Below are positions 20,970 to 36,407 of a DNA stretch of 64,000 bases, piece by piece (the stretch's first letter is position 1; each line of letters opens with the position of its first letter). Position numbers and translations under genes: made by a program. The stretch comes from Kaistella haifensis DSM 19056 (lineage in GTDB: Bacteria > Bacteroidota > Bacteroidia > Flavobacteriales > Weeksellaceae), in NCBI RefSeq assembly GCF_000735695.2, contig NZ_JASZ02000007.1, forward strand, positions 21,678 through 85,677, written 5' to 3'. The notes under the pieces were generated by a model. The model ran no database searches and was not told where the DNA came from. It was given only the letters and a program-made list of their open reading frames with translations.

Positions 20970-20984
20970 GTGGAGTTGGAGGGA
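20970..20984. repeat. attL core: 15-bp copy of the ssrA 3' end
   Basis: GTGGAGTTGGAGGGA is identical to 34094-34108, where it forms the 3' end of the tmRNA gene. A shared GAACC follows two or three bases later in both copies. This marks the left boundary of the integrated element. Confidence 0.85.
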
Positions 20985-21121: not shown

Positions 21122-22363
21122 ATGAATTATACTTTCAAATTAAAGCAACCTTCTTCAGATAACGAAACTTTGATTTATTTTCGGTCTTATTTTGTAAACG
21201 AAAATAAAAATTTTATCTATTCTACAGGCGAAAAAATAACACCATCTGAATGGGATTTTGTAAACAGGCAACCAAATGATTTAAACGGACGAACAAAAAG
21301 GGCAGAGAATCATAGAAGCATTAAAAAACAATTAGATAGATACAGTGGTTATTTTACAGAAATTGTAAACCGTTATAAAAATATAAATGAGGAATTGACT
21401 TTAAATCTTTTGCGACAAAGATTTGATGAAGAATTCAAAAAAACAAAATCGAAAAATGATTTTTTTAGAATTTATGACGAATTTATTGAGGAAAAAGAAA
21501 ATGATTACTCTGGAAATTCAATATCAAATTCAACGCTTAAACGCTACAAATGCAATAAAACTTTGTTGGAAGATTTTGAATCCAAAGCAAATCATAAATT
21601 ATCACTTGGCAAATTCAATGATAACACATTCAATAAATTTTTAAAATTTTGCATTGAAGACAGAAAACATTCAGCAAATACCGTTCATAGAAATGTAGGG
21701 TTATTGAAAACTTTTTTACTTTGGGCTTTAAACAAAAAGTATAGTTATAATAATGATTTTATCAGTTTTAAGAAACCACCTAAATTCAGGACTGATGAAA
21801 TTGCCTTGAATTACGAACAGGTTGAAACTATTTACAATCACGATTTTACGAAAAACAAAAGATTGGAAAGAGTTCGTGATTTATTTGTTTTTGGCTGTAC
21901 TACGGGAATGAGATATGGTAATTACAGTACAATTTCCAAAAGTGATATTGATGGCGACTTTATCCGAGTAATTGATTTGAAAAGTAAATCTAAAAACTTA
22001 GCAATTCCTTTAAACAGCATCTCTAAATCTATTCTTGAAAAGTACGACTACAATTTGCCCAATATTACGAACCAAAAAATGAATGAGTACATTAAAGAAG
22101 TATTTCAAGAATTGGAGTTTACGGATGAAATCAAAAAAACAATGAAATACGGTGATGAATTAGTGGAAATGAAGTCTGAATTTTGGGAAAGAATTTCTTC
22201 CCATACCGCCAGAAGAAGTTTTATAACGATAATGAAAAATAAAAGAGTTCCAGATAAAGTGATTATGAGTTATACAGGACACACAAGTTTAGAAGTTTTC
22301 AACGCTTATTATAGACCAAGTGAAGAAGATAAAGTTAATTATATGAATGAAGTTTTTAAATAA
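21122..22363 (+). CDS. Tyrosine recombinase/integrase of the element
   Basis: This is a 413-residue site-specific recombinase responsible for integration at ssrA. It has an N-terminal arm-binding-like domain (about 1-100), a SAM-like core-binding domain (about 110-205) and a C-terminal catalytic domain. Catalytic residues are visible: Arg264 in TTGMRYGNY, His361 and Arg364 in SSHTARRSF, His387 in YTGHTS, and the nucleophile Tyr396 or Tyr397 in FNAYYRP. The size and the phage_int_SAM_5-like layout match integrases of Bacteroidota elements. It lies 138 bp from attL and reads inward. Confidence 0.93.
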   Translation: MNYTFKLKQPSSDNETLIYFRSYFVNENKNFIYSTGEKITPSEWDFVNRQPNDLNGRTKRAENHRSIKKQLDRYSGYFTEIVNRYKNINEELTLNLLRQRFDEEFKKTKSKNDFFRIYDEFIEEKENDYSGNSISNSTLKRYKCNKTLLEDFESKANHKLSLGKFNDNTFNKFLKFCIEDRKHSANTVHRNVGLLKTFLLWALNKKYSYNNDFISFKKPPKFRTDEIALNYEQVETIYNHDFTKNKRLERVRDLFVFGCTTGMRYGNYSTISKSDIDGDFIRVIDLKSKSKNLAIPLNSISKSILEKYDYNLPNITNQKMNEYIKEVFQELEFTDEIKKTMKYGDELVEMKSEFWERISSHTARRSFITIMKNKRVPDKVIMSYTGHTSLEVFNAYYRPSEEDKVNYMNEVFK

Positions 22364-23463: not shown

Positions 23464-23538
23464 ATCAGCTTGTTTGTTTATCCGAACCATCATTCTCTAA
23501 CCTTCCGTATCTATTACGGAGTAAAAATCCATACAAAA

Positions 23539-24777
23539 ATGCCCGAGAAAATTCCCTATTTACGAGTAGGCACGACCTATTATAAAACCATAGAAAAGCC
23601 GTTGATATCAGGAGATAAGATTTCAATATTGGTTCGCTGGAATCGGGAAACCATTATCAGCGATTATGGAAAAGTCTATGTTTCAAAAATTCCGAAATAT
23701 GACGGTTTTTGTTGTATTCCTTCACATTTGGATTATCAGCAAATCATTGACGGATTCTACAATATGTACAATGAAATTCCATTTCAACCAAGTGAGGAAA
23801 ACATAAATTCTGAAGCTTTAAAAGAAAAAATCCCATTTTCATTAAATTTTATGGAACATATTTTCGGAGAACAGCTGGAACTTGGATTGGATTATATCAA
23901 AATTTTGCTTCAATATCCTATCCAAATGCTTCCGATTCTTTGCCTTGTAAGCAAAGAACGCTCTACAGGAAAATCTACCTTTATCAAATGGCTGAAATCC
24001 ATTTTCGGACTTAATATGACCTACATTAAAGGAGATTCTTTTAGTAGCCAATTTAACTCAGATTGGACTTCGATGCTCGTTGTTGCGATTGATGAAGTAT
24101 TCTTTGACAGGAAAGAAATCACAGAACGTTTAAAATACCTTTCCACCACCAATAAAGATAAAATGGAAGCCAAAGGAAAAGATAGAGAAGAAGTAGATTT
24201 CTTTGCCAAATTCATCTTATGTTCCAACAATGAAGACAATTTTATTCAAATTGATGAAAACGAGATTCGTTTCTGGATACTGAAAGTAAAACCGATAAAA
24301 ACGGAAAATACAGATTTTTTGAATCGCTTAATTGCTGAAATTCCCTATTTATTGCGATTTCTGATTAAAAGACCTTTTCATTCCCATAAAAAGACAAGAA
24401 TGTGGTTTTCGGCTACGGAAATCAGAACCAAAGCTTTGCAAAAACTCGTTTGGAAAAATAACAATCAATTGGAATCTAAAATGCTGGAGCTTTTCTACGA
24501 GTTTTTTGAAAGCCGTGAAGAATTGGAAATTCAGGTTGTTCCGCAGGATGTTCTCAATATGGTGAACAAAATGTTCAAGCCTTATTTCTGGACAAGGAAC
24601 GATATCAGAAAATTGCTGAAAGACATCTGGAATTTAGAACCGCAGACCAATGGCTTAGCCTATATAAGATATGACATTGATTATGCCGGAATTTTCTATC
24701 AGAACAATTCCATTGGCAGATATTACACCATTAAAAAAGATTTTATCCTTGAAAAATATGTTGATTTGTTGAATTGA
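23539..24777 (+). CDS. Replication-type NTPase/helicase (SF3-like, DUF5906 type)
   Basis: This is a roughly 412-residue protein. ATG 23539 is preferred over an in-frame TTG at 23470 because it gives a sensible cytoplasmic start (MPEKIPYLRVGTTYY). The central NTPase domain has a P-loop SKERSTGKSTFI at about residues 144-155, an acidic Walker B stretch VVAIDEVF at about 184-191 and a sensor-like FILCSNNED near 236. This resembles the virus- and plasmid-type helicase domain of primase-helicase proteins in mobile elements. It probably unwinds the element's origin together with the toprim primase downstream; an iteron cluster lies between the two genes. Confidence 0.8.
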   Translation: MPEKIPYLRVGTTYYKTIEKPLISGDKISILVRWNRETIISDYGKVYVSKIPKYDGFCCIPSHLDYQQIIDGFYNMYNEIPFQPSEENINSEALKEKIPFSLNFMEHIFGEQLELGLDYIKILLQYPIQMLPILCLVSKERSTGKSTFIKWLKSIFGLNMTYIKGDSFSSQFNSDWTSMLVVAIDEVFFDRKEITERLKYLSTTNKDKMEAKGKDREEVDFFAKFILCSNNEDNFIQIDENEIRFWILKVKPIKTENTDFLNRLIAEIPYLLRFLIKRPFHSHKKTRMWFSATEIRTKALQKLVWKNNNQLESKMLELFYEFFESREELEIQVVPQDVLNMVNKMFKPYFWTRNDIRKLLKDIWNLEPQTNGLAYIRYDIDYAGIFYQNNSIGRYYTIKKDFILEKYVDLLN

Positions 24778-25047: not shown

Positions 25048-26013
25048 ATGAACTGTAAACAATTTAACAGCATATCGTTGGAAGAAGTACTCCAAAATCT
25101 CGGACACCTTCCCACGAAACAAAATGAAAAAGAAGCCTGGTATCTTAATCCTTTCGGAGCAGAAAACCACGCCTCTTTTAAGCTCGATAAAAGACAGAAC
25201 CTCTGGTTTCTGCATTCGGAAGGAATTGGCGGAACCAATACCGATTTTATGCAAAAATATCTGAACGCTTCTGTAAAAGAGGTTTTGGAGTGGGCGGAGA
25301 AACAACATTTTTCTTCTTTTCAATCGCAAAACAAAATCCAAGCTCCAAACCAAAACCCTAAACAAGAACCCTCAAATTATCAAATCAGGGAAATCAAAGA
25401 GCTTCAAAATGAAAGTTTAAAAAATTATCTACATGAAAGAGGACTTTCGCACAATATCTATCCGTTAGTTAAAGAAGTGCATTTTAAAATGGAAGATAAA
25501 AGCTTTTATGCCATCGGCTTTGAAAATCTTTCCAAAGGCTGGGAACTGCGAAACCAATATTACAAAGGTGCAATTTTGAAAAAGGATATTTCCATTATCA
25601 GTTTGAAAGATAAAAGCGATTTTAAGAATCAAAACGAAAACAGGAAAGACAGAAAAAACGTTGCCGTTTTCGAGGGTTTTATTGATGCTTTGTCGTTTAT
25701 CGAGTTGCGAAAATCCTATTCAGGAGATTTGTTGGTAATGAATTCCGTTGCTTTGCTAAACAAGACCAAAGAAAACTTGAAAAGCTATTCGGAAATCAAT
25801 CTTTTTCTGGACAATGACAATGCAGGAAAGAAATGCAGAAATGAGATTTTGCAATCCTTTCACAACGCTAAAGATTTTTCGGAAATCTACCACAATCACA
25901 AAGATTTGAACGAATTTTTGATTGAACGAATCAAAAGAGAAACCGAAATCCGACATCAAAAAGAACAGGAAGAACAACAGCAGAATGTTCAGGGTTTTAG
26001 ACGAAGAAGATAA
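25048..26013 (+). CDS. Toprim-domain primase of the element
   Basis: This 321-residue primase-like protein has an N-terminal CHC2-type fold that has lost its zinc cysteines (YLNPFGAENHASFKLDKRQ followed by WFLHSEGIGGTNTDFM). A C-terminal toprim domain has VAVFEGFIDALSF (acidic Glu and Asp) at about 207-219 and NLFLDNDNAGKK at about 249-260, the metal-binding DxD. The last 25 residues are Gln- and Glu-rich. This combination is common in Bacteroidota integrative elements, next to a relaxase. It would prime replication or strand synthesis after transfer. Confidence 0.85.
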   Translation: MNCKQFNSISLEEVLQNLGHLPTKQNEKEAWYLNPFGAENHASFKLDKRQNLWFLHSEGIGGTNTDFMQKYLNASVKEVLEWAEKQHFSSFQSQNKIQAPNQNPKQEPSNYQIREIKELQNESLKNYLHERGLSHNIYPLVKEVHFKMEDKSFYAIGFENLSKGWELRNQYYKGAILKKDISIISLKDKSDFKNQNENRKDRKNVAVFEGFIDALSFIELRKSYSGDLLVMNSVALLNKTKENLKSYSEINLFLDNDNAGKKCRNEILQSFHNAKDFSEIYHNHKDLNEFLIERIKRETEIRHQKEQEEQQQNVQGFRRRR

Positions 26014-26251: not shown

Positions 26252-27412
26252 ATGAAAACATCGATTAATTTCAAAGCGGTGCAATCCGATTCTGAAACTC
26301 ATAATTTTAGGAAGAAAACTTTTGATTATGTCCGCAAAGATTTGACCAAAAACAACGAATCTTGGATTGAAGAAAAAATAGCAGACCGAATCCAAAAAAT
26401 CGAAAATTACTGCAAAGAAAAATCGGGCAGAAAATTACAGAAAAACGCAATGCCGATTCGGGAAGCAGTCGTTTTGATAAAAGAAAATACCACGATGCAA
26501 GACCTGCATAACTTGTCAAAAAGGTTGGAGGAAGAATTGGGAATCCGTATTTTCCAGATTGCCATTCATAAAGATGAGGGGCATTACGATAAAGACACCA
26601 ATGAATGGAAGCCAAATCTTCACGCTCATTTGGTCGCAGATTGGCAGGATTTGCAAACTGGAAAAACCTTAAAACATCAATCTTTTCATTATTCCAAAAT
26701 GCAGGATTTAGCTGCGGAATGTTTAGAAATGGAAAGAGGTGTTTCAGGTTCATTAGCAAGATTGGAGACGGTAGAATTTAAAATCAAGAAAAAGGAAGAA
26801 GATTTGAAAATTTTGGAAGAACGATACAGTCAAATGCAACAAGAGATGGAATCTAAAAAAGCAGAAGATTTGATTATAAAGGAAACTGATTTTTTGGGTT
26901 TTCAGAAAATAAAAACGGACAAAACGATTGAAAACTACAAAAAGGCAATCAAAACTAATAATATCCTACTTCTAAAAAACAAAACAGAGCTGGACTCCAA
27001 AGAGAAACAGATAGCAGAACTCAATAACAAGATTGAAAGTCTGAAAAAAGAAGTTTTATTTTTCAAAAGCAAAAACTCCACGCTTCTAACCAATGAAACC
27101 GTTTTTGCTGTTGAAAAGAAAAAATACTTGGATTCTGTAGAGCATACACTTAAAAAAGCCATTTTGCAAGAAAGTATAAAAATCCCGAATCTGCAAAATC
27201 TAAATGACACTGAGCTAAAAGATAAAATGTTTGAAATATTGGAAAAAACTTCAAAAGAAAACCAAATACCAGTTTCTGCTTTTGAGGAGATTTTCGAAGA
27301 TAAAGAGAAAATTTTTCGTGTGTTCAATCTGATGCAATTCAGATATATGGAAGACGATCGAATAAAAAAAGTTGAGGACGATATAACAAAGAAGAGCGGA
27401 TTGAGAAGGTAA
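26252..27412 (+). CDS. Relaxase / mobilization protein, HUH type (MobV-like)
   Basis: This 386-residue protein would nick the element at oriT and pilot the single strand during conjugative mobilization. The N-terminal domain (about 1-170) carries AIHKDEGHYDKD followed by WKPNLHAHLV. The histidines at 106, 111, 124 and 126 and Glu109 match the metal-binding motif of Pre/Mob-like relaxases. From about 174 to 295 there is a long coiled coil rich in Glu, Lys and Leu. No coupling protein or secretion genes accompany it, so transfer would need a helper system. MobV assignment is by motif, not by search. Confidence 0.82.
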   Translation: MKTSINFKAVQSDSETHNFRKKTFDYVRKDLTKNNESWIEEKIADRIQKIENYCKEKSGRKLQKNAMPIREAVVLIKENTTMQDLHNLSKRLEEELGIRIFQIAIHKDEGHYDKDTNEWKPNLHAHLVADWQDLQTGKTLKHQSFHYSKMQDLAAECLEMERGVSGSLARLETVEFKIKKKEEDLKILEERYSQMQQEMESKKAEDLIIKETDFLGFQKIKTDKTIENYKKAIKTNNILLLKNKTELDSKEKQIAELNNKIESLKKEVLFFKSKNSTLLTNETVFAVEKKKYLDSVEHTLKKAILQESIKIPNLQNLNDTELKDKMFEILEKTSKENQIPVSAFEEIFEDKEKIFRVFNLMQFRYMEDDRIKKVEDDITKKSGLRR

Positions 27413-27480: not shown

Positions 27481-28248
27481 ATGAAATACTTAATTTTTAT
27501 ATTTTTTAGTATCATAACTTATGGGCAAAATATAGTTTCGGGGAATGTTTCATCGGAGAATGGCTTTATAATACAAAATGTATTAGTAATCAACATAAAA
27601 ACAGGAAGTAAAACATATACTAATAATGAAGGGAGCTTTAAAATTAAAGCCAATGTAAATGACGAGCTACGATTTATAATAGAAAATTATGAGAGAGGTT
27701 CAAAAGTTGTTAAAAATAATGACTTCTTAAACTCCATATCTATTCAGCTTGTTAGAGTTCCTATTGAGATTCAAGAAGTAAAAGTAGTTGCTAAACCCAC
27801 AGGGGATTTAGAAAAAGATTCTAAAAAATTTAGTGTTGATAAAAAAACAACAGAGTTAAATGTTGCAATGAACAAATATATGAAGGAAAAACTTACTGAA
27901 GTACTACCTAAAAATAGTATTCCATCTTCCTTTGCACCTCCAAACTTATATGCTGGTCAAGTGAATTTACTAAGTATTTTAGGGTTCATTATTAATCCAA
28001 AAGAATCTTTAGGAATTAAAAATGATAAAATATTAAATTTTAGTGAAACTAACGAATTTTATAAAAAAGTGAAAGAAAGCTTTTATGGAAAATACTATAT
28101 AGATTATGGGCTTGATGAATTTGAATTTGAAGCATATATTATTTATTTAGATAAAAAATATAAACTAGCAGAAAGGTATTATAATAATTTTAATAAAGTT
28201 GAAATTGAAAGAGTATTAAAAAATTCATTGAAAGAATTTGTTAAATAG
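27481..28248 (+). CDS. Secreted carboxypeptidase-regulatory-like domain protein, element copy
   Basis: This 255-residue exported protein is the first cargo gene. ATG 27481 is used; an in-frame TTG at 27475 only adds two residues ahead of the signal peptide (MKYLIFIFFSIITYGQ). A beta-sandwich of the CarboxypepD_reg type (about 20-95) is followed by a mostly helical C-terminus. It is clearly related to the chromosomal gene at 34849: both share TGxLxKDxK, then YMK-x-LTEVxPK, then PSxFAxPNxxAGQ, then an ETxEFY stretch. Its role is unknown. Possibilities are an accessory or immunity factor for the neighbouring peptide. Strongly AT-rich codon use. Confidence 0.8.
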   Translation: MKYLIFIFFSIITYGQNIVSGNVSSENGFIIQNVLVINIKTGSKTYTNNEGSFKIKANVNDELRFIIENYERGSKVVKNNDFLNSISIQLVRVPIEIQEVKVVAKPTGDLEKDSKKFSVDKKTTELNVAMNKYMKEKLTEVLPKNSIPSSFAPPNLYAGQVNLLSILGFIINPKESLGIKNDKILNFSETNEFYKKVKESFYGKYYIDYGLDEFEFEAYIIYLDKKYKLAERYYNNFNKVEIERVLKNSLKEFVK

Positions 28249-28331
28249 GACAATCAGAGACCTTATTTTAAAAGTGAAACTGATAGTATATATGTCTTTT
28301 ATGAATTTATATGTGCTAATAAAAAATATTT

Positions 28332-28362
28332 TTTGCAGTATTAAATTATTTTCATACTTTAG
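28332..28362 (+). promoter_or_regulatory. Promoter of the leader-peptide gene
   Basis: TTTG at 28332-28335, a 19-bp spacer, then TACTTTAG at 28355-28362 match the Bacteroidota promoter consensus with one mismatch. Transcription would begin about 25 bp before the start codon at 28394. Confidence 0.7.
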
Positions 28363-28393
28363 CAAAGTATAACAAAATAAAAATATTTATTCT

Positions 28394-28576
28394 ATGAAAA
28401 ATTTACAAGATTTACAAAACAAAGGAACAAAACTGTCTAAATCAAAAATGAGAAAAATTGGTGGTGGCTTATTTGGTATTTTCTGTATAACAGGTATTCT
28501 TGATGGAATTCCAGGAAATACACACTTTAGTTGGGGTTCTTGTCCAAAATCAGTTCAACCAATGGGACAAAATTAA
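28394..28576 (+). CDS. Double-glycine leader peptide precursor (bacteriocin/pheromone candidate)
   Basis: This 60-residue precursor has a classical leader: a charged amphipathic segment with LSKSKMRKIGGG, in which Leu14, Met19 and Ile22 occupy the spaced hydrophobic positions and cleavage is expected after Gly24 (or Gly23). The core of about 36 residues is hydrophobic and Gly-rich, with only two cysteines, Cys31 and Cys50, so one disulfide is possible. It ends SVQPMGQN. The gene has its own promoter and terminator, and an exporter with a C39 leader peptidase lies 2.7 kb downstream. A bacteriocin, a toxin or a signalling peptide are all possible. I recognise no known bacteriocin in the core. 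Confidence 0.8.
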   Translation: MKNLQDLQNKGTKLSKSKMRKIGGGLFGIFCITGILDGIPGNTHFSWGSCPKSVQPMGQN

Positions 28577-28594
28577 GATTGGTGAAAATCTAAT

Positions 28595-28624
28595 AATATG
28601 CCCTTAATTGGGCATATTTTTTTT
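28595..28624 (+). terminator. Terminator after the leader-peptide gene
   Basis: AATATGCCC pairs with GGGCATATT around a 6-nt loop and runs into T residues, 18 bp after the peptide stop. It would separate a short abundant peptide transcript from the downstream genes, whose first ATG is at 28636. Confidence 0.88.
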
Positions 28625-28635
28625 ATACTATTAGC

Positions 28636-29691
28636 ATGAAGAAATACCTTATTATAATTTGTAGTTTTTTTTACATAATATTCAGCTCTCAAGTTGTTAT
28701 TAATAGTAAAAACAAACAACCTATATCAAATGTTGCTACTTTATCAAAAAATGGACAGATTCTTGGAGTATCTGATAAGGATGGAAAAATAACTATTTCT
28801 ACCAAAGAAAATGAGTATAGAGTATTAGACTCCGATACCATTGAATTAACTCATACAAATTTTGAAACACAGAGAATGATTTGGAAAAAATTCAAAAGCC
28901 AAGCTACATTTTCATTAAATCCTGTTGAGAATATTGAAGAAGTAGTGGTTTATGCTCAAAATCCTAATTATCTCGTTCTTAGAGCTTATTTTATTTCATA
29001 CCAACTAATAGATGATACTCCTCAATCTTTTTCTGATGGCATTATTGAATACTATATTTCATTATCAAAAAATAAAATAATCAATTATAATATTCTTGAA
29101 ACTCGAATTTATAAAAACACTGCATTTATCTATGATTTTTACAAAAAAATGGGTAATACAACATTAAGCATGGGTTCACAAATTCTACCATTTAGTTTTA
29201 ACGAAGAAGTGCTTTTGAATCGTTGGAATGATTTTAACATAACTCAAAACGATGAAATAAAATTAAAAGATAAAATCATAGGTAACATTGAAAAAAATAA
29301 TAACAGTTCAAATATTTTCATTGAATACTATACCCCTTCAAGAATTCGAGAACAGTCTTTGTTAGGAATGTCCTCTAAAGTTGTAAATTATAACATTTCA
29401 GAAAGTTTTTATTCTGATGACCCATCAATCAAAAACATTCAAACTATCTCAAAATACTATAAAAGTTTTATTACACAGAAAAAAAATAGTTTTAAATATG
29501 AATTGATTCAAAATGTTCAGATTTTGGGAAGGAAATTTTTATCAAAAAACGATTTTGAAAAGCTTAAAACAAATCTCAATCATTCTGAGAAAACAAAATA
29601 TATAAATAATTATTGGGAACAAGAAGAGTTAATGAAAATACCATTATCTATAAAAAATCTTTTAAATAATAAACTTGAAATGGTAAAATAA
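28636..29691 (+). CDS. Exported protein with carboxypeptidase-regulatory-like N-terminus, peptide-cluster accessory
   Basis: This 351-residue protein has a signal peptide (MKKYLIIICSFFYIIF, ending near SSQ). A short CarboxypepD_reg-like beta-sandwich follows (about 20-100), containing NKQPISNVATLSKNGQILGVSDKDGKI and ending in IEEVVVYAQNP, the hinge that joins such domains to a second module. The rest (about 110-351) is unique, with no cysteine pair or catalytic motif visible. It follows the peptide gene and its terminator and is 27 bp from the VKOR gene, so it should belong to the export operon. It could be an outer-membrane or periplasmic accessory, or an immunity protein. Confidence 0.75.
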   Translation: MKKYLIIICSFFYIIFSSQVVINSKNKQPISNVATLSKNGQILGVSDKDGKITISTKENEYRVLDSDTIELTHTNFETQRMIWKKFKSQATFSLNPVENIEEVVVYAQNPNYLVLRAYFISYQLIDDTPQSFSDGIIEYYISLSKNKIINYNILETRIYKNTAFIYDFYKKMGNTTLSMGSQILPFSFNEEVLLNRWNDFNITQNDEIKLKDKIIGNIEKNNNSSNIFIEYYTPSRIREQSLLGMSSKVVNYNISESFYSDDPSIKNIQTISKYYKSFITQKKNSFKYELIQNVQILGRKFLSKNDFEKLKTNLNHSEKTKYINNYWEQEELMKIPLSIKNLLNNKLEMVK

Positions 29692-29718
29692 ATTACCTAA
29701 ATGTAAACTAAGACATTT

Positions 29719-31263
29719 ATGACAGAATTTTTACTAAATGAGCTTATTCGTTTAAATGGCTATATAGTTAATGGAAAACGATTTAATGAATATTTTTTAT
29801 CTCATCCTGATTATCCTAGTTTGTCAGCCATTGAAAATACTTTTGATACCTTTCATATAGAAAATGTCATATCCAAATTTGAAAATGAGCATTTTGAAGA
29901 TTTGCCTGAAGTATTTATTTCTTCATTGAAGAACCATTTTTCTGATTTGGTTTTAATAATAAAAAAAGATTCAGAGGTACTTGTAATTGATAAGCAAAAT
30001 AAATCATTTACATTTGGTTTTGATGAATTTTTAAAACAATGGACAGGAATAGTAGTAGCTATTGAAAAGAAAGAAGAACCTACCCATATTGATACACCAT
30101 CTGATAAAAATCAATTCAAGCAATCGCTTAAATTTATCGCATTGGGGATTATTGGTCTTATCTTGGGTTATTCTTTGTGGAAATTCAGTATTTCAGAAGT
30201 TGCCTATATTGTAATATCCCTTGTAGGGCTATATTATTGTTTTGAGATTTACAAAAATAAGCATGGCGAAAAATCCATTATTGTAGATAAAATCTGCAAT
30301 GATGAAAAAGAGGAAAGCTCATGCCAACAACTCATGCAATCAGACCAAATAAGCATTTTTGGATTAAAGCTCTCTGATATTGCCTTGTTTTACCTTCTTA
30401 CAACAAACATTCTGGGGTTATTCATTAATACTACTCAATTTCTAATCATCATATTATCTGTTGTAAACTTCCCTGTAATAGCTTATTCCTTATACATTCA
30501 GCTAGTTAAAGAGAAAAAGCTATGTAAAGTATGCCTGATATTAATTTTTATTCTACTTATTCAGTCAGGAATAAGTTTGTTTTATTTTAATTATTCTTTT
30601 TCGGTAGAGGTTTTGATATTGGGTGCTATATATTTTCTTTCAATCCTTCCTTTATACATTTTTATTAACAAAACAATTGATGAAAAGAACAAACTGAAAA
30701 ATGAAAATACCATCAATCTCAGATTTAAAAGGAATTATGATATTTTTAAAAGAGAATTACTTACAACATCAAAAATTGGATTTGAGTATCAAAACTTATT
30801 CTTTTTAGGAAATAAGGATGCAAAAGTTCATTTTACACTTATCTCCAATCTTGAATGTAAATTTTGTGGAGAGGCACATAAGATTCTAAAAAAGCTCTAT
30901 TTAGAAAATGGAAATGATAAATCTTTTCAAATCAGATTTAATTATTCTGATGAAAAAATGTCTATTCAAATTGAGAACATCTTTAAAACATTGCTTCATT
31001 TATATTCATCAACTGAAAAGCAATTTTTAGAAGCATTGGATTTTTGGTATAAAGAAAGAAATTATAATGCTTTTATAAAGAAATTTGGGTTATATAATAA
31101 TCAAAGTATAGACCTCATTCAGAAAATAAGGAATGAGAACTTGAACAAAGGACTTAATTTTACTCCAGCTTTTTTAGTTAATGGATTTATATTTCCTGAA
31201 AAATATGAGAAAGAAGATATTTTGTATTTCGCACAGGATTTAGTAGATGATGAAGAAATTTAA
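29719..31263 (+). CDS. Membrane protein with C39-like, VKOR and thioredoxin domains
   Basis: This 514-residue protein appears to be a dedicated disulfide-forming enzyme. The first ~115 residues resemble a C39 peptidase fold (HPDYPSLSAI, then SDLVLIIKKD) but have no cysteine and so no protease activity. From about 135 come membrane helices with the VKOR signature: an external pair Cys193 and Cys202, and the redox-active CKVC (269-272). The C-terminal thioredoxin/DsbA-like domain has CKFC (380-383). This allows electron flow from substrate thiols to the quinone pool. It lies 3 bp before the exporter gene, so oxidation of the two-cysteine peptide is a natural inference. Confidence 0.87.
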   Translation: MTEFLLNELIRLNGYIVNGKRFNEYFLSHPDYPSLSAIENTFDTFHIENVISKFENEHFEDLPEVFISSLKNHFSDLVLIIKKDSEVLVIDKQNKSFTFGFDEFLKQWTGIVVAIEKKEEPTHIDTPSDKNQFKQSLKFIALGIIGLILGYSLWKFSISEVAYIVISLVGLYYCFEIYKNKHGEKSIIVDKICNDEKEESSCQQLMQSDQISIFGLKLSDIALFYLLTTNILGLFINTTQFLIIILSVVNFPVIAYSLYIQLVKEKKLCKVCLILIFILLIQSGISLFYFNYSFSVEVLILGAIYFLSILPLYIFINKTIDEKNKLKNENTINLRFKRNYDIFKRELLTTSKIGFEYQNLFFLGNKDAKVHFTLISNLECKFCGEAHKILKKLYLENGNDKSFQIRFNYSDEKMSIQIENIFKTLLHLYSSTEKQFLEALDFWYKERNYNAFIKKFGLYNNQSIDLIQKIRNENLNKGLNFTPAFLVNGFIFPEKYEKEDILYFAQDLVDDEEI

Positions 31264-31266
31264 AAA

Positions 31267-33468
31267 ATGAAATCAAAAAATTTCCCTTTCTATAAACAAC
31301 CTGATGCTAAAGATTGTGGGCCTAGTTGCTTACGAATTATCTGTAAACACTATGGTAAAACAGTACCCTTACAACATATAAGAAAATTAGCTGAAACCAC
31401 AAGGGAAGGCAGTAATTTATCAGGATTGAGCGAAGCTGCTGAAAGTTTAGGCTTTGATACTCTTGGAATGAAAATCAATTTTGAGGTATTAAAAAATGAT
31501 ACTCCACTACCATGTATTGTACATTGGAAAAAAGTACATTATGTGGTTGTTTATGAAATTGATAACAAAGATAATACTGTTTATGTTTCAGACCCTGCTT
31601 ATGGTTTAATATCTTATTCTAAAGAAGATTTTATCAAATCTTGGATTGGAGAAGAAGCAGACGAAACTACTGAAGAAGGTATTATTTTGGCTTTGGAAGC
31701 CACGCCAAAATTCTTTCAAACCAAATTTAAAGATAGTGAAAATAAAGCCAGTATTTCATTTCTTTTAAAATACCTGATAAAATATAAAAGGCTCGTAATA
31801 CAGCTAATTATTGGGCTTTTGATAGGAAGTTTATTAACCCTAGTATTTCCATTTCTTACTCAAAGTATTGTAGATATTGGAATAAAAAGTCAGGATTTAA
31901 ACATTATATATCTTATTCTTTTAGCACAAGTAATGTTATTTATAGGAAAGATGGGTTTTGATATAGTGAGAAGCTGGATTTTACTGCATCTTTCTACAAG
32001 AATTAATATATCCATCGTTTCAGATTTTTTCATTAAACTGATGAAACTTCCCATTAGTTGCTTTGATACGAGAATGACAGGAGATATATTACAAAGAATA
32101 GACGACCATCATAGAATTGAGCAGTTATTAACCAATACTTCTCTGAATATTTTGTTTTCATTGGTTAATCTTGTTGTTTTTAGTGCTGTACTGTTTTTCT
32201 ACGACTACAGACTATTTCTTGTATTTCTTTTAGGAGCTGTTCTGTATATGGCTTGGGTTTTATTCTTTTTCAAAAAGAGGAAACTATTAGATTATGAGAA
32301 ATTTGGTCAGATGTCTCAGGAGAGAAGCAAAGTAATAGAGCTGATTAATGGAATGCAGGACATCAAACTGCATAATGCTGAAAGGAAAAAAAGATGGGCT
32401 TGGGAATCCATACAGTTGGAACTGTTCAAAATTAAAATAAAGTCTCTTTCTTTAGAACAATGGCAGTCTGTGGGTGGAAATTTTATCAATCAAATGAAAG
32501 ATGTTTTTGTGAGCTTTCTTTCTGCTAAATTGGTTTTAAGTGGTAATCTTACTTTAGGGATGATGCTTTCTGTTCAGTATATCATTGGGCAGTTAAACAG
32601 CCCTCTGTTACAGCTAATTGAATTTATTAAGCAATCACAGGATGCCAAAATATCTTTAGAGCGATTGGGAGAAATCCATGATAAAGAAGACGAGGAAAAC
32701 AAAGATGAGCAATATACTACTGAAATTCCTAAAAAAGACATTCAAATAAAAGATGTTTCTTTCAGATATATAGGTTCAGAGGATTTTATTTTTGAAAATC
32801 TTAATCTGAATATTCCTTATCAAAAAACTACTGCTATTGTTGGTGCAAGTGGGAGTGGGAAAACTACATTACTGAAATTGTTACTGAAATTCTATGAACC
32901 TGTTAATGGAGAAATAAAAATAGGAAATACCAATATCAATACAATTTCTCCAAAATTCTGGAGGGAACATTGTGGCGTAGTGATGCAGGAGGGTTATGTT
33001 TTTAATGATACCATTGCTGAAAATATTGTAGTTGGCGATGATAATATAGATGAAGAGAAATTAAAAAAATCAATTGAAATAGCTAATATTAAAGATTTTG
33101 TTGATGGTTTACCCCTCCATCAAAATACACAAATTGGAAATGAAGGTATAGGAATGAGTGGAGGACAAAAGCAAAGATTGTTTATTGCAAGGGCTGTATA
33201 TAAATCCCCTGAATATATCTTTTTTGATGAAGCTACAAGCTCTTTAGATGCCAAAAATGAAAGAGTTATCATGCAAAATCTAAAACAATTTTTTGAAGGT
33301 AAAACAGCCATTGTAATTGCTCATAGATTATCTACTGTTAAAAATGCAGATAAAATTATTGTGTTGGATAAAGGAAAAGTAGTGGAAGAAGGTACACATA
33401 ATGAATTAGTAACAATGCAAGGAGAATATTATCGTTTAATTAAAGACCAGTTAGAACTTGGAAACTAA
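31267..33468 (+). CDS. Peptidase-containing ABC exporter (C39 leader peptidase, bacteriocin type)
   Basis: This 733-residue protein cleaves the leader at the double glycine and exports the core peptide through the inner membrane. The C39 peptidase domain (about 1-140) has catalytic Cys17 in DCGPSCL, the His in HWKKVHYVVVYEI and the Asp in SDPAYG. A six-helix ABC transmembrane domain spans about 165-450. The nucleotide-binding domain (about 490-725) has Walker A GASGSGKTT, signature MSGGQKQR, Walker B YIFFDEATS and the switch histidine in IAHRLST. All catalytic residues appear intact. The next gene overlaps its end by 11 bp. Confidence 0.95.
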   Translation: MKSKNFPFYKQPDAKDCGPSCLRIICKHYGKTVPLQHIRKLAETTREGSNLSGLSEAAESLGFDTLGMKINFEVLKNDTPLPCIVHWKKVHYVVVYEIDNKDNTVYVSDPAYGLISYSKEDFIKSWIGEEADETTEEGIILALEATPKFFQTKFKDSENKASISFLLKYLIKYKRLVIQLIIGLLIGSLLTLVFPFLTQSIVDIGIKSQDLNIIYLILLAQVMLFIGKMGFDIVRSWILLHLSTRINISIVSDFFIKLMKLPISCFDTRMTGDILQRIDDHHRIEQLLTNTSLNILFSLVNLVVFSAVLFFYDYRLFLVFLLGAVLYMAWVLFFFKKRKLLDYEKFGQMSQERSKVIELINGMQDIKLHNAERKKRWAWESIQLELFKIKIKSLSLEQWQSVGGNFINQMKDVFVSFLSAKLVLSGNLTLGMMLSVQYIIGQLNSPLLQLIEFIKQSQDAKISLERLGEIHDKEDEENKDEQYTTEIPKKDIQIKDVSFRYIGSEDFIFENLNLNIPYQKTTAIVGASGSGKTTLLKLLLKFYEPVNGEIKIGNTNINTISPKFWREHCGVVMQEGYVFNDTIAENIVVGDDNIDEEKLKKSIEIANIKDFVDGLPLHQNTQIGNEGIGMSGGQKQRLFIARAVYKSPEYIFFDEATSSLDAKNERVIMQNLKQFFEGKTAIVIAHRLSTVKNADKIIVLDKGKVVEEGTHNELVTMQGEYYRLIKDQLELGN

Positions 33469-33994
33469 AATAGAAAGAGAAAATCTCAATGATTCAGAAT
33501 TGCGTTCAACAGGTGTGCAAAATCTATTGAATAAACTTCCTTATTGGCTAATCTTAAAGGGAAACTTTTTAATTTCTGTAATATTGATTATTTTTTTATT
33601 ATTCATAGGATATTCTGTAAAATATCCTGAATTTGTTAATTCTAAAATAACTATTATTCCTCAAAATATTCAAAATAATAACCAGAAAAATAAGACTATA
33701 GCAGGATTGCTTACAGTTTCTAAAAGTGATTCAAAAAAAATAAAAATAGGTCAAAAGGTTATTATTAAATTGTATGACTTCCCCTATCAGGAATATGGAG
33801 TACTGGAAGGACAAGTACATAATACATCACTTATTCCTAACGGAAAAAATGACTTTTATGTAAATGTATATTTTCCTAAAGGCTTAAAAACTTCTTTTGC
33901 TAAAAACATTCCTTCTAACAAAGAACTTAAAGGAAGTGCTGAAATTGTTATTAATACAGAATTAATTAAAAAACTTTTCAATCAAATCAAATAA
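33458..33994 (+). CDS. Short HlyD-like membrane-fusion protein lacking the coiled-coil middle
   Basis: This 178-residue protein would link the exporter to the outer membrane. The N-terminal part (about 15-68) matches HlyD-family adaptors: cytoplasmic tail, one membrane helix at about 33-54, then VKYPEFVNSKITI. It then jumps directly to the beta-barrel part seen at the C-terminus of full-length adaptors (LLTVSKSDSKKIKIGQKV and GVLEGQVHNTSLIP). The coiled-coil hairpin and lipoyl halves, about 200 residues, are absent. Translation appears to start at TTG 33458, overlapping the exporter stop; no upstream ATG is in frame. Either an in-frame deletion or a genuine minimal adaptor. Confidence 0.8.
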   Translation: METKIERENLNDSELRSTGVQNLLNKLPYWLILKGNFLISVILIIFLLFIGYSVKYPEFVNSKITIIPQNIQNNNQKNKTIAGLLTVSKSDSKKIKIGQKVIIKLYDFPYQEYGVLEGQVHNTSLIPNGKNDFYVNVYFPKGLKTSFAKNIPSNKELKGSAEIVINTELIKKLFNQIK

Positions 33995-34093: not shown

Positions 34094-34108
34094 GTGGAGT
34101 TGGAGGGA
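34094..34108. repeat. attR core within the ssrA 3' end
   Basis: GTGGAGTTGGAGGGA is identical to the copy at 20970-20984. Here it forms the last bases of a functional tmRNA gene, so integration keeps ssrA intact. Confidence 0.85.
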
Positions 34109-34491
34109 TTCGAACCCTCGTCCAAACAAGCAACACGTAAGCTTTCTACATGCTTATTCTGTGTTTGGTTTTCGATCGTAAACAGAGCACAGACACCCAA
34201 TTTACGACTTATCTTCTTTAGTTTTCGTGCTTTGGCCGAAGTTTCCAAAACCTTATTTCCGCATTGCTATACCCCGGAATCAGACGTCGCGAAACAGAAC
34301 TTCTGCGGGATATCTTGCTTCCTTACTATACTTCGGGAAAACGCTGAATCCTACTGTAATTCGGATTAAGCTGCAAGAGCAAACTCTTGGTCGCCAGTTA
34401 AAATTGTGTAGCAAGGGATTAAAGAGATCGCGCTACGGTTCTCTGCATGCTTACTTACCCATTGATCTTGCTGTCGAAACCAGTCAACCCC
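34095..34491 (-). ncRNA. ssrA: Transfer-messenger RNA (tmRNA)
   Basis: This 397-nt tmRNA rescues stalled ribosomes by tagging incomplete proteins. On the minus strand it opens GGGGTTGACTGGTTTCGACA, the conserved 5' end of tmRNA, and closes with GGTTCGAATCCC and CTCCAACTCCA, giving the tRNA-like T arm and an encoded CCA. The tag reading frame starts at the GGC codon 34393-34395 and stops with TAA at 34366-34368. The predicted tag is GDQEFALAA, ending in the LAA degron recognised by ClpXP-type proteases. The 3' end hosts the integrated element. Confidence 0.95.
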
Positions 34492-34544: not shown

Positions 34545-34745
34545 TTAGGGCGTGTCCTTCCGTCGGTCATTTTGCCGCGCCCGCCTTCGGCGGGCGCGGC
34601 GTCATTTCCTCCTTCAGGCCGGGCTTTCCGCTATATCTTTTTCAGTAGCGGCGGCGGAGCCGCCGCTACTGAAAAAGGATGCCGCTTCTATCCCTCACGC
34701 GAGAGCAGTGTTTCCCGATCACCCGGATTCCCAAAATATTTAACG
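34545..34745. repeat. GC-rich structured intergenic element with two perfect hairpins
   Basis: Composition jumps from AT-rich to GC-rich. Hairpin 1 (34574-34600) has a perfect 12-bp stem, GCCGCGCCCGCC, with a TTC loop. Hairpin 2 (34638-34676) has a perfect 18-bp stem with a GGA loop. Conserved-looking single-stranded blocks surround them: GGGCTTTCCGCTATATC before and AGGATGCCGCTTCTATCCC after. No coding potential is convincing. It resembles a dispersed intergenic repeat that I recall from other flavobacterial genomes. Confidence 0.6.
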
Positions 34746-34848
34746 TTTAAGCGAAGAGAACTTTCTAAAAAAATTCATAAAAGCGTTAACGGAGGTTAAA
34801 CTTTAAAAAGTGTAGTTAAAAAAAATTACTTTTAATAAAAATTTGCCA

Positions 34849-35646
34849 ATGAAACCAAAATTACTCCTTCTATTTCTGCTAGTTTGCTCGTCTCTTTTGT
34901 TTTCTCAGGAATATATTTTTGGGAAAGTTTCTACCGACTTGGGGGACAAACTTCCCGATGCTGTGGTGATCAATATGAGAACCGATGAGAAAATTGTTTC
35001 AGATCGAGATGGAAACTTTATGATAGCAGCCAAAAATGGCGATGAAATTCGTGTTTTGAAAAATACTTACGAAAGATTTGTACAAAAAGTTTCGAGCGAA
35101 AATTTCTTAAAACCATTGAATGTTACATTGTCCAAAGCGCCTTATTTAATTGAAGAAATCGAATTGGCATTTCAAGCCACGGGAAATCTGAAAAAAGATG
35201 TGAAATCCCTAGATCCACCGAAAAGGGTAGTTGCGTTAAATTCCTCGATGGATTTTTATATGAAGTCACCGTTAACCGAAGTGGTACCGAAACTTTCAAC
35301 GCCTTCCGCATTTGCTCAACCGAATTATAATGCAGGCCAAGCTGACCTTCTGAAACTGGCTTCTGCTTTGTCAGGTTTGTTTAATAAAGCCACACAACAA
35401 CCGCTTACGAAAGCCAACTATGCCGAAACCCAGGAGTTTTACCGCAGAATTAAAACTACGATGGATTTGAGTTTTTATACCAATCAAGGTTGGGATGAGG
35501 AGGAAATCGACCGTTTCTTGATTTATGCAGATCGTTCGTATGAATTGGCCAAAAAGTACCGAAAATCATTTGATGTTGCACAAATCAGTGCGGAGATGAA
35601 AATGGCTTACGCGGAATACATTAAAACCAGAAAAATTGGCTCTTGA
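34849..35646 (+). CDS. Secreted carboxypeptidase-regulatory-like domain protein (chromosomal relative 1)
   Basis: This 265-residue exported protein starts at ATG 34849; an in-frame TTG two codons upstream is less likely. Signal peptide: MKPKLLLLFLLVCSSLLFSQ. A CarboxypepD_reg-like domain (about 20-95) has DKLPDAVVINMRTDEKIVSDRDGNF. A helical C-terminal part contains MDFYMKSPLTEVVPK, then PSAFAQPNYNAGQADLL. The same pattern is found in the mobile-element gene at 27481. Its stop overlaps the next start (ATGA), so the two chromosomal relatives are translationally coupled. Function unknown; probably periplasmic or outer-membrane associated. Confidence 0.8.
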   Translation: MKPKLLLLFLLVCSSLLFSQEYIFGKVSTDLGDKLPDAVVINMRTDEKIVSDRDGNFMIAAKNGDEIRVLKNTYERFVQKVSSENFLKPLNVTLSKAPYLIEEIELAFQATGNLKKDVKSLDPPKRVVALNSSMDFYMKSPLTEVVPKLSTPSAFAQPNYNAGQADLLKLASALSGLFNKATQQPLTKANYAETQEFYRRIKTTMDLSFYTNQGWDEEEIDRFLIYADRSYELAKKYRKSFDVAQISAEMKMAYAEYIKTRKIGS

Positions 35647-36407
35647 TGACCCGGTTTCTTGTGCTGATTATGATTTATTTTTCGCAGCATGTTTTCTCTC
35701 AAATTGTTTCAGGCATTGTTACTGATGAAGATGGACGTCCATTACCTGCGGTTTTGGTGATTAATGTCTCAACCAATCAGAAAACTACAACCAATCTTAA
35801 TGGTGAATTTTCAATAGAGGCTTCACCGCAAAACGAATTAAGATTTGTGCGAAATGGTTTTGAGCGGAATTCACACATTATCAAAGAAATTGATTTTAAT
35901 AATCCTGTTAAAGTTTCCCTTTTAAGAATGATTGAAGAAATTGAAGAGGTAAAAGTTTCTTCGTTGAAATTAACCGGTGATTTGAATAAAGATTCCAAAA
36001 GCTTAACTAAAATAGACAAAACTGCACAAGTTGAGAAAGCAGTTGGAATTCCGGGACCACCAGAAAAACCTCGAGAAAAACCTGCGGAATTTAAAAAAGA
36101 TGTACTGTATTCATTACTTTCTTTAAGCGTTAAACCGCAGGCGATTTATGATTTAATTAGCGGTGATGCAAGACGCATGAAGGCAGAATATCGCTATGAA
36201 GATCTACAAGAAAATATAAGCTGGATACGACAACGTATCGACGATGATTATTTTGTCAAAATGGGGATTCCTCAGGGAAAAATTTCCGAATTTCTGCAAT
36301 TTTCAATTGGATTAAAGCCTGAAATTAATCAGTTCATTAAAGCAAAAAATCTGTCGAAAATACTTTTCATTTTAGAAGATACTTTACCAGTTTACCTGCA
36401 TAAATAA
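35646..36407 (+). CDS. Secreted carboxypeptidase-regulatory-like domain protein (chromosomal relative 2)
   Basis: This 253-residue exported protein starts at ATG 35646, overlapping the preceding stop by one base. A signal peptide (MTRFLVLIMIYFSQHVFSQ) leads into a CarboxypepD_reg-like domain: SGIVTDEDGRPLPAVLVINV followed by NLNGEFSIEA, and an IEEIEEVKVSSLKLTGDLNKD linker also found in its neighbour. The C-terminal half is shorter and more diverged than in the other two family members, with a proline-rich PGPPEKPREKP stretch at about 138-148. Function unknown. Confidence 0.8.
   Translation: MTRFLVLIMIYFSQHVFSQIVSGIVTDEDGRPLPAVLVINVSTNQKTTTNLNGEFSIEASPQNELRFVRNGFERNSHIIKEIDFNNPVKVSLLRMIEEIEEVKVSSLKLTGDLNKDSKSLTKIDKTAQVEKAVGIPGPPEKPREKPAEFKKDVLYSLLSLSVKPQAIYDLISGDARRMKAEYRYEDLQENISWIRQRIDDDYFVKMGIPQGKISEFLQFSIGLKPEINQFIKAKNLSKILFILEDTLPVYLHK

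Follow-up and report, generated by a model that had tools for sequence, protein, structure and literature searches.

A stretch of 64,000 nucleotides from contig NZ_JASZ02000007.1 of Kaistella haifensis DSM 19056 (positions 21,678 to 85,677, forward strand; "the window") carries a six-gene cluster for the maturation and export of a small two-cysteine peptide, within what is taken as a mobilizable element of about 13.1 kb. Two features set the cluster apart: by profile comparison its first gene is a homologue (paralogue) of BamP, a subunit of the β-barrel assembly machinery (BAM), and its last gene encodes a HlyD-type adaptor from a conserved family that lacks the hairpin part. The reading we favor, at a rough probability of 0.4, is that the peptide is a one-disulfide bacteriocin, likely aimed at BamA, with an exported protein of 351 amino acids acting as its cognate immunity protein and the BamP paralogue shielding the producer's BamA.

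Cluster and peptide precursor

All six genes are open frames on the same strand between 27481 and 33994, in the order given by a preliminary description of this DNA. "Exported" below refers to a signal-peptide-like N terminus assessed by eye.

27481..28248, + strand: BamP-like exported protein, 257 amino acids; the open reading frame (ORF) opens at TTG 27475; signal-peptide-like start, CPD-type domain, long linker, helical C-terminal domain
28394..28576, + strand: precursor of 60 amino acids with a double-glycine leader and two core cysteines, Cys31 and Cys50 (ORF, leader-expression match, alignment)
28595..28618, + strand: terminator-like hairpin directly 3' of the precursor gene (hairpin search)
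28636..29691, + strand: exported protein of 351 amino acids with a weak CPD-type domain (PF13715, E 0.02 only); partner of the precursor and immunity candidate
29719..31263, + strand: C39-like (without catalytic Cys), VKOR, and thioredoxin protein, 514 amino acids (PF03412, positions 46-132 only; PF07884, E 4e-10; PF13462, E 9e-8)
31267..33468, + strand: C39 peptidase-ABC exporter, 733 amino acids (PF03412, E 3e-34; PF00664, E 9e-28; PF00005, E 1e-29)
33458..33994, + strand: hairpin-less HlyD-type adaptor, 178 amino acids, transmembrane segment and β-barrel part only; TTG start, several relatives starting METK

A double-glycine leader expression fitted one of the 245 ORFs of 40 to 100 amino acids in the whole window, and that one was the precursor. 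Alignment placed the two glycines at residues 24 and 25, so a core of 35 amino acids starting at Leu26 is most likely; the core of about 36 residues suggested earlier would apply only if cleavage fell one residue sooner. The precursor's length, leader type, and cysteines had been described correctly, and both cysteines are common to the window precursor and its two core relatives (P0148 and locus L106), with which it shares CIxGxLDGIPGNTxxxWGxCPKSxQPMGQ. Full-length matches to the precursor occurred in 2 of 320 genomes of the family, and 17 further genomes matched weakly, mostly in the leader. A protein search with it returned two matches, one being itself; the remaining cores were identified by inspection of the loci. 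Neither of two NCBI models for such peptides, NF047798 and NF047792 (CCPGW), matched the window precursor at an E value of 1 or below. A TTTG-N19-TACTTTAG pattern before the gene was one of seven matches at one mismatch along 6.7 kb of the + strand and was not counted as evidence.

Comparison with homologous clusters, proposed in the preliminary description as a check, was carried out on contigs from the host's GTDB family. Chryseobacterium pennae (L010) has the same order of genes: BamP-like, two-cysteine double-glycine precursor, CPD protein, VKOR, C39-ABC, and short HlyD. Chryseobacterium BLS98 (L011) has a BamP-like gene, another CPD protein, a two-cysteine precursor, ABC exporter, and short HlyD, with a 45-amino-acid VKOR remnant before the ABC gene. 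The related clusters thus keep a small two-cysteine precursor, with its cysteines placed toward the beginning and toward the end of the core. The L010 and L011 cores are unrelated to that of the window, each having a cysteine six or seven residues after the core begins and another near the C-terminal end. This pattern supports the center of the original proposal, that the peptide would be oxidized to one disulfide and secreted. By eye, hairpins similar to the one at 28595 to 28618 also lie 3' of the L010, L011, and L106 precursors. Upstream of the BamP/short-HlyD cluster in L011 (425-5258) is a row of further genes, encoding a Cys-rich double-glycine precursor, a VKOR-thioredoxin protein, and a 980-amino-acid protein that carries TIGR03891, a domain of thiopeptide-type bacteriocin biosynthesis. 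Searches of viral contigs with the adaptor, BamP, and precursor alignments found no relative.

Some properties of the cores would suit a pheromone-like signal or an envelope-modifying peptide, with the CPD and BamP-like proteins as periplasmic receptors or responders. The cores are neutral or acidic, and the C-terminal part is nearly invariant across the window, P0148, and L106 sequences, as for a peptide fitting one receptor. However, Pfam found no regulator among the six proteins, and the cores are wholly different between clusters, as in bacteriocins, which makes a signal quite improbable.

C39 peptidases cleave double-glycine leaders, and VKOR-thioredoxin pairs form disulfides. The exporter, described earlier as intact, has its peptidase, membrane, and ATPase domain matches. 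The membrane protein recognized as VKOR-thioredoxin has six cysteines (loop pair Cys193/Cys202, VKOR CxxC 269/272, and thioredoxin CxxC 380/383) that were invariant in 23 aligned proteins, namely the window protein and 22 chosen from 120 listed relatives. It is predicted by homology to be a disulfide-forming enzyme. The match of its C39-like domain begins at profile position 46 and residues 1 to 33 hold no cysteine, so the catalytic cysteine motif is absent. One VKOR protein 88% identical to that of the window (P0027) is labeled Aliarcobacter in one source and is perhaps from a mis-binned metagenome-assembled genome.

A BamP paralogue at the head of the cluster

The preliminary description listed two exported proteins without assigning either a role. 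Both have signal-peptide-like starts by eye; the first of them proved to be a BamP homologue and the second pairs with the peptide. The BamP relationship came only with profile search: phmmer against the PDB gave nothing useful with the BamP-like protein of the element, the first of the host's two, or the 351-amino-acid protein. The A3 alignment profile of the element protein, positions 1 to 247, matched PDB 9n2d_E, positions 1 to 233, over the whole length at E 6.4e-9. All 23 members of the A3 alignment matched NCBIfam NF053692 at E values of 1e-3 or below, the window protein scoring 40.8 bits, under the equivalog cut-off of 230 bits. In an AlphaFold 2 model, the CPD domain (19-98) had a predicted local distance difference test score (pLDDT) mostly above 90, the linker scored low, and helices lay within 189 to 256; this plan of CPD domain, linker, and helical C-terminal domain agrees with the tripartite BamP described in PMC12611786. 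In a fold search with the model, only the N-terminal domain was matched, and Foldseek placed a SusC N-terminal extension (9hfj) just above BamP.

Element-type BamP was found in 3 of the 320 family genomes at 431 to 477 bits, with the next best match at 228 bits; the model was built from the same three genomes. All three carry a short-clade HlyD beside BamP, intact element-type copies occurred only beside short adaptors, and BamP heads the common genes in each of the three loci whose context suffices. A scan of 69 HlyD loci, 37 of them at least 18 kb long, detected no BamP-like ORF above 30 bits in the other 67, and a plasmid search gave no BamP match. Between loci the element proteins are 47 to 50% identical, with nonsynonymous divergence (dN) below synonymous divergence (dS; ratios 0.25 and 0.45, which are rough, with dS near or above 1). 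The linker is the least similar part in all three element pairs, at 30 to 45% against 43 to 66% for the folded domains. In the host BamP, by contrast, the linker core shows higher conservation (66%) than the CPD domain does (51%).

A conserved adaptor family without the hairpin part

The preliminary description recorded a short HlyD-like adaptor, which is present, but missed that it belongs to a conserved hairpin-less family. Of 26 database proteins, counting that of the window, 24 have 167 to 185 amino acids; the other two have 109 and 135. The short form aligned with long HlyDs at about residues 1 to 70 and 80 to 178, keeping the transmembrane segment at the N terminus and the β-barrel part at the C terminus, and about 260 residues between these, corresponding to the lipoyl and hairpin part, are gone. 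A tree of 27 short and 74 long proteins, 101 in all, grouped 26 short adaptors in one clade (ultrafast bootstrap [UFBoot] 98). The short adaptor of genome G038, entered as L078 and identical to L104, was placed among long HlyDs (nodes 99, 97, 75, and 81). Because the G038 form falls outside the 26-member clade, the lipoyl/hairpin part was lost twice independently. L104 (9164-9727) encodes this 187-amino-acid HlyD beside a C39-ABC gene, in a locus that also has a GLPGLI gene and a small double-glycine-type ORF.

In wider samples, of 395 genomes each from the order and the class (E of 1e-30 or below), G000 and G038 were the only genomes with a full-span short form among the matches listed. Some of the listed matches, in open frames of 182 to 284 amino acids, covered the barrel part only; of these, the host's one was inspected. 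Plasmids gave five partial HlyD matches, none spanning more than 42% of the query. As the preliminary description had stated, no OEP/TolC gene adjoins the cluster; 10 OEP-type ORFs above the family cut-off lie elsewhere in the genome.

A broken HlyD in a decaying cluster would also give a short protein, and decay does occur among these genes: a copy in another genome has lost its exporter and has a broken precursor and BamP (L222, below), and a long HlyD of the host is split over two frames. In the window, however, all six genes are open, the adaptor keeps the same short length in 24 of 26 proteins, its clade is supported at 98%, and dN/dS was about 0.23 to 0.54 in three comparisons, which indicates constraint. 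A broken gene was ruled out on length, clade, and dN/dS, making a decaying cluster barely tenable; by the same evidence, the short HlyD belongs to a conserved family without the hairpin part and is no fragment. The split host HlyD lies at L118 150-1575, near a contig end (C1), with its exporter presumably off the contig.

The restriction of intact element-type BamP to loci with a short-clade HlyD might also mean that the two proteins form an export route, linking the exporter to the outer membrane in place of TolC. We know of no export role of BamP, and the independent hairpin-less HlyD in L104 stands in a 19.9-kb locus with no BamP-like gene. BamP itself is described as periplasmic and as binding BamA and BamD (PMC12611786). 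Such a route is very unlikely.

An exported partner and the case for self-protection

Pairing of the 351-amino-acid protein with the peptide was found in two genomes. In L106, a protein 64% identical to it is encoded after a homologous precursor, but the next VKOR is only 38% identical and the HlyD is long. This different setting indicates that precursor and partner moved together between backbones. The protein is therefore a candidate cognate immunity protein, and the earlier statement that no obvious immunity gene is adjacent was probably wrong. L106 (986-3390) has two further double-glycine precursors, both with the NF047798 leader, and immediately after each comes a GLPGLI-family gene. Precursors paired with an exported partner of their own may form the general unit, and GLPGLI proteins may be the cognate partners of double-glycine peptides in Chryseobacterium.

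Genome G049 (L222, 8700-11200) holds a decayed copy of the C. pennae cluster, including a 2,010-bp stretch 92% identical to L010. Stops and frame changes interrupt its precursor and BamP genes, no exporter is left, and the 351-amino-acid homologue alone is still open, with dN/dS of 0.32 against L010. This fits an orphan immunity gene, although a single case could be chance. Among 170 genomes of the G100 genus, 3 had close homologues of the 351-amino-acid protein (443 to 614 bits), two of the three being sources of the model; its N-terminal part matches a common family of about 340 amino acids, and 153 of the 170 genomes gave some match. A structure prediction from 19 sequences had a mean pLDDT of 39.5 and was not used.

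In the mechanism we propose, the precursor would be made from its own short unit ending at the terminator-like hairpin. The C39-like domain of the VKOR-thioredoxin protein, lacking its catalytic cysteine, may dock the leader; the thioredoxin CxxC would form the disulfide between Cys31 and Cys50, with the electrons going on through VKOR to quinone. The exporter's C39 domain would cut after Gly24-Gly25 and export the core of about 35 amino acids. With an adaptor that has lost the TolC-reaching part, the peptide would probably enter the periplasm or reach an outer membrane channel in another way. Release into the periplasm would expose the producer's own BamA, where the BamP paralogue would sit in the seam, as BamP does against darobactin, and the 351-amino-acid protein, traveling with the peptide, would act as cognate immunity.

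BamP was described in 2025 as a nonessential BAM subunit (PMC12611786). Darobactin binds the seam of BamA. In Flavobacterium johnsoniae, BamP proteins give protection from this compound, and a strain lacking all four BamP homologues is darobactin sensitive, as tested in an outer-membrane-permeabilized background (PMC12611786). BamA is also the target of bacteroidetocins, cysteine peptides with a double-glycine leader that have a dedicated thiol oxidoreductase and C39 ABC exporter (PMC8546649, PMC6671954). Since bacteroidetocins target BamA and BamP homologues protect against darobactin, the BamP paralogue is most simply explained as a BamA shield, and the hairpin-less adaptor, by exposing the producer's periplasm, would create the need for one at short-adaptor loci.

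Three observations weigh against this shield. The precursor and its partner occur in L106 without an element BamP; BamP tracks the adaptor rather than one peptide; and bacteroidetocin resistance maps to outer loops of BamA, not to the seam (PMC8546649). The L106 pair, together with the sole survival under constraint of the partner gene in L222, would fit an ordinary oxidized class II-type bacteriocin with a target other than BamA, the 351-amino-acid protein being its only immunity and BamP a passenger or general envelope helper. A passenger is harder to reconcile with a BamP gene that heads the common genes wherever context suffices and is kept at 47 to 50% identity with dN below dS, and we consider this alternative unlikely, if a serious one. 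The bacteriocin with a mobile BamA shield remains our preferred reading. Its fullest form, two-layer self-protection in which a peptide-specific partner is joined by a mobile BamP plug with an element-variable linker, while the hairpin-less adaptor releases a BamA-attacking one-disulfide peptide into the periplasm, is rather unlikely to hold in every part.

The mobile element and its surroundings

The preliminary description placed the cluster on an element, and an integrase, a weak relaxase match, and repeats of the ssrA 3' end around the cluster agree with this. These are the features of an integrative mobilizable element, with the relaxase match under the Pfam cut-off; the element, from integrase to peptide cluster, is taken to lie between the repeats.

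20970..20984, no strand: left copy of a 15-bp attachment (att)-like repeat (ssrA 3' end copy), identical to 34094-34108
21122..22363, + strand: tyrosine integrase with Arm-DNA-binding domain (PF00589, E 6e-13; PF17293, E 1e-5)
23470..24777, + strand: DUF5906/VapE-like replication protein of the element (PF19263, E 2e-19; TIGR01613 weak)
25048..26013, + strand: Toprim primase-like protein of the element (PF13155, E 3e-14)
26252..27412, + strand: MobA/VirD2-like relaxase, weak (PF03432, E 3e-4, 21.5 bits against a Pfam cut-off of 24.6)
34094..34491, − strand: intact ssrA (tmRNA) gene, insertion site at its 3' end; right repeat 34094-34108 (repeat and RNA gene search)
34843..36407, + strand: the host's two BamP-like genes beside ssrA, outside the element (profile matches)

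In all 29 same-genus loci examined, ssrA adjoins the first chromosomal BamP-like gene, and this neighborhood is thus the host's own. An empty-site comparison found ssrA relatives without element genes (L224 to L226); only L224 has the window's far-left genes, plus about 17 kb of further difference, and no exact empty site is claimed. A Flavo-1 RNA (Rfam RF01705, 52.5 bits) lies at 34613-34705 on the − strand, between ssrA and the host BamP-like genes. The host genome is 2.85 Mb.

Significance and comparison with known systems

The general idea of a Bacteroidota double-glycine peptide with a thiol oxidoreductase and C39 ABC exporter is already known; the new parts are the BamP paralogue and the hairpin-less adaptor. 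A literature search, with preprints and most subscription papers outside its reach, found no paper on this combination and, among the papers listed, none linking BamP to a bacteriocin cluster. A mobile peptide cluster with its own BamP paralogue would suggest a natural reason for BamP proteins, as a defense against BamA-targeting peptides of other Bacteroidota, and mobile BamP paralogues would, if this is true, represent a new immunity principle. Two independent hairpin losses also question the rule that Gram-negative peptide ABC exporters require a TolC-reaching adaptor.

Like BamP in the F. johnsoniae BAM complex (PDB 9n2d, PMC12611786), with which it shares remote full-length homology, the element protein has a CPD-type N-terminal domain, a long linker, and a helical C-terminal domain. 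Unlike it, the element protein falls far under the equivalog cut-off, is encoded on a mobile element within a peptide-export cluster, and has a linker that is the variable part between elements.

The VKOR domain is multi-spanning in this family, and the cluster has no separate gene for a five-transmembrane protein beside the precursor. Bacteroidetocins are the closest parallel in layout, being Bacteroidota peptides with a double-glycine leader, a Cys-containing core, and a thiol oxidoreductase and C39-ABC in the same small locus (PMC6671954). As described there, double-glycine peptide, thiol oxidoreductase, five-transmembrane protein, and C39 ABC were enough for active bacteroidetocin in Escherichia coli without an immunity gene. 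The bacteroidetocin core has four cysteines and 42 amino acids where this one has two and about 35, and a separate five-transmembrane protein and oxidoreductase stand in place of one C39-like/VKOR/thioredoxin fusion (PMC6671954). No HlyD and no immunity gene are named in the four-gene locus (PMC6671954), whereas the window cluster has an adaptor, a BamP paralogue, and the 351-amino-acid partner. Putative bacteriocins of Chryseobacterium (NF047798; CCPGW, NF047792) resemble the system in kind of leader and export backbone.

Class II microcin and HlyB-HlyD-TolC type I export have in common with this cluster a C39-ABC exporter, a HlyD-type partner, and a double-glycine-leader substrate. In contrast to HlyB-HlyD-TolC export, the adaptor here lacks the lipoyl and hairpin part, and in E. 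coli HlyD, TolC is bound by a motif within the region absent from the short form (PMC3391258). BesA of Borrelia is likewise a periplasmic adaptor without an α-hairpin, but serves resistance-nodulation-division (RND) efflux (PMC4446572), whereas the adaptor described here accompanies a peptide ABC exporter and reflects two independent losses in one bacterial family.

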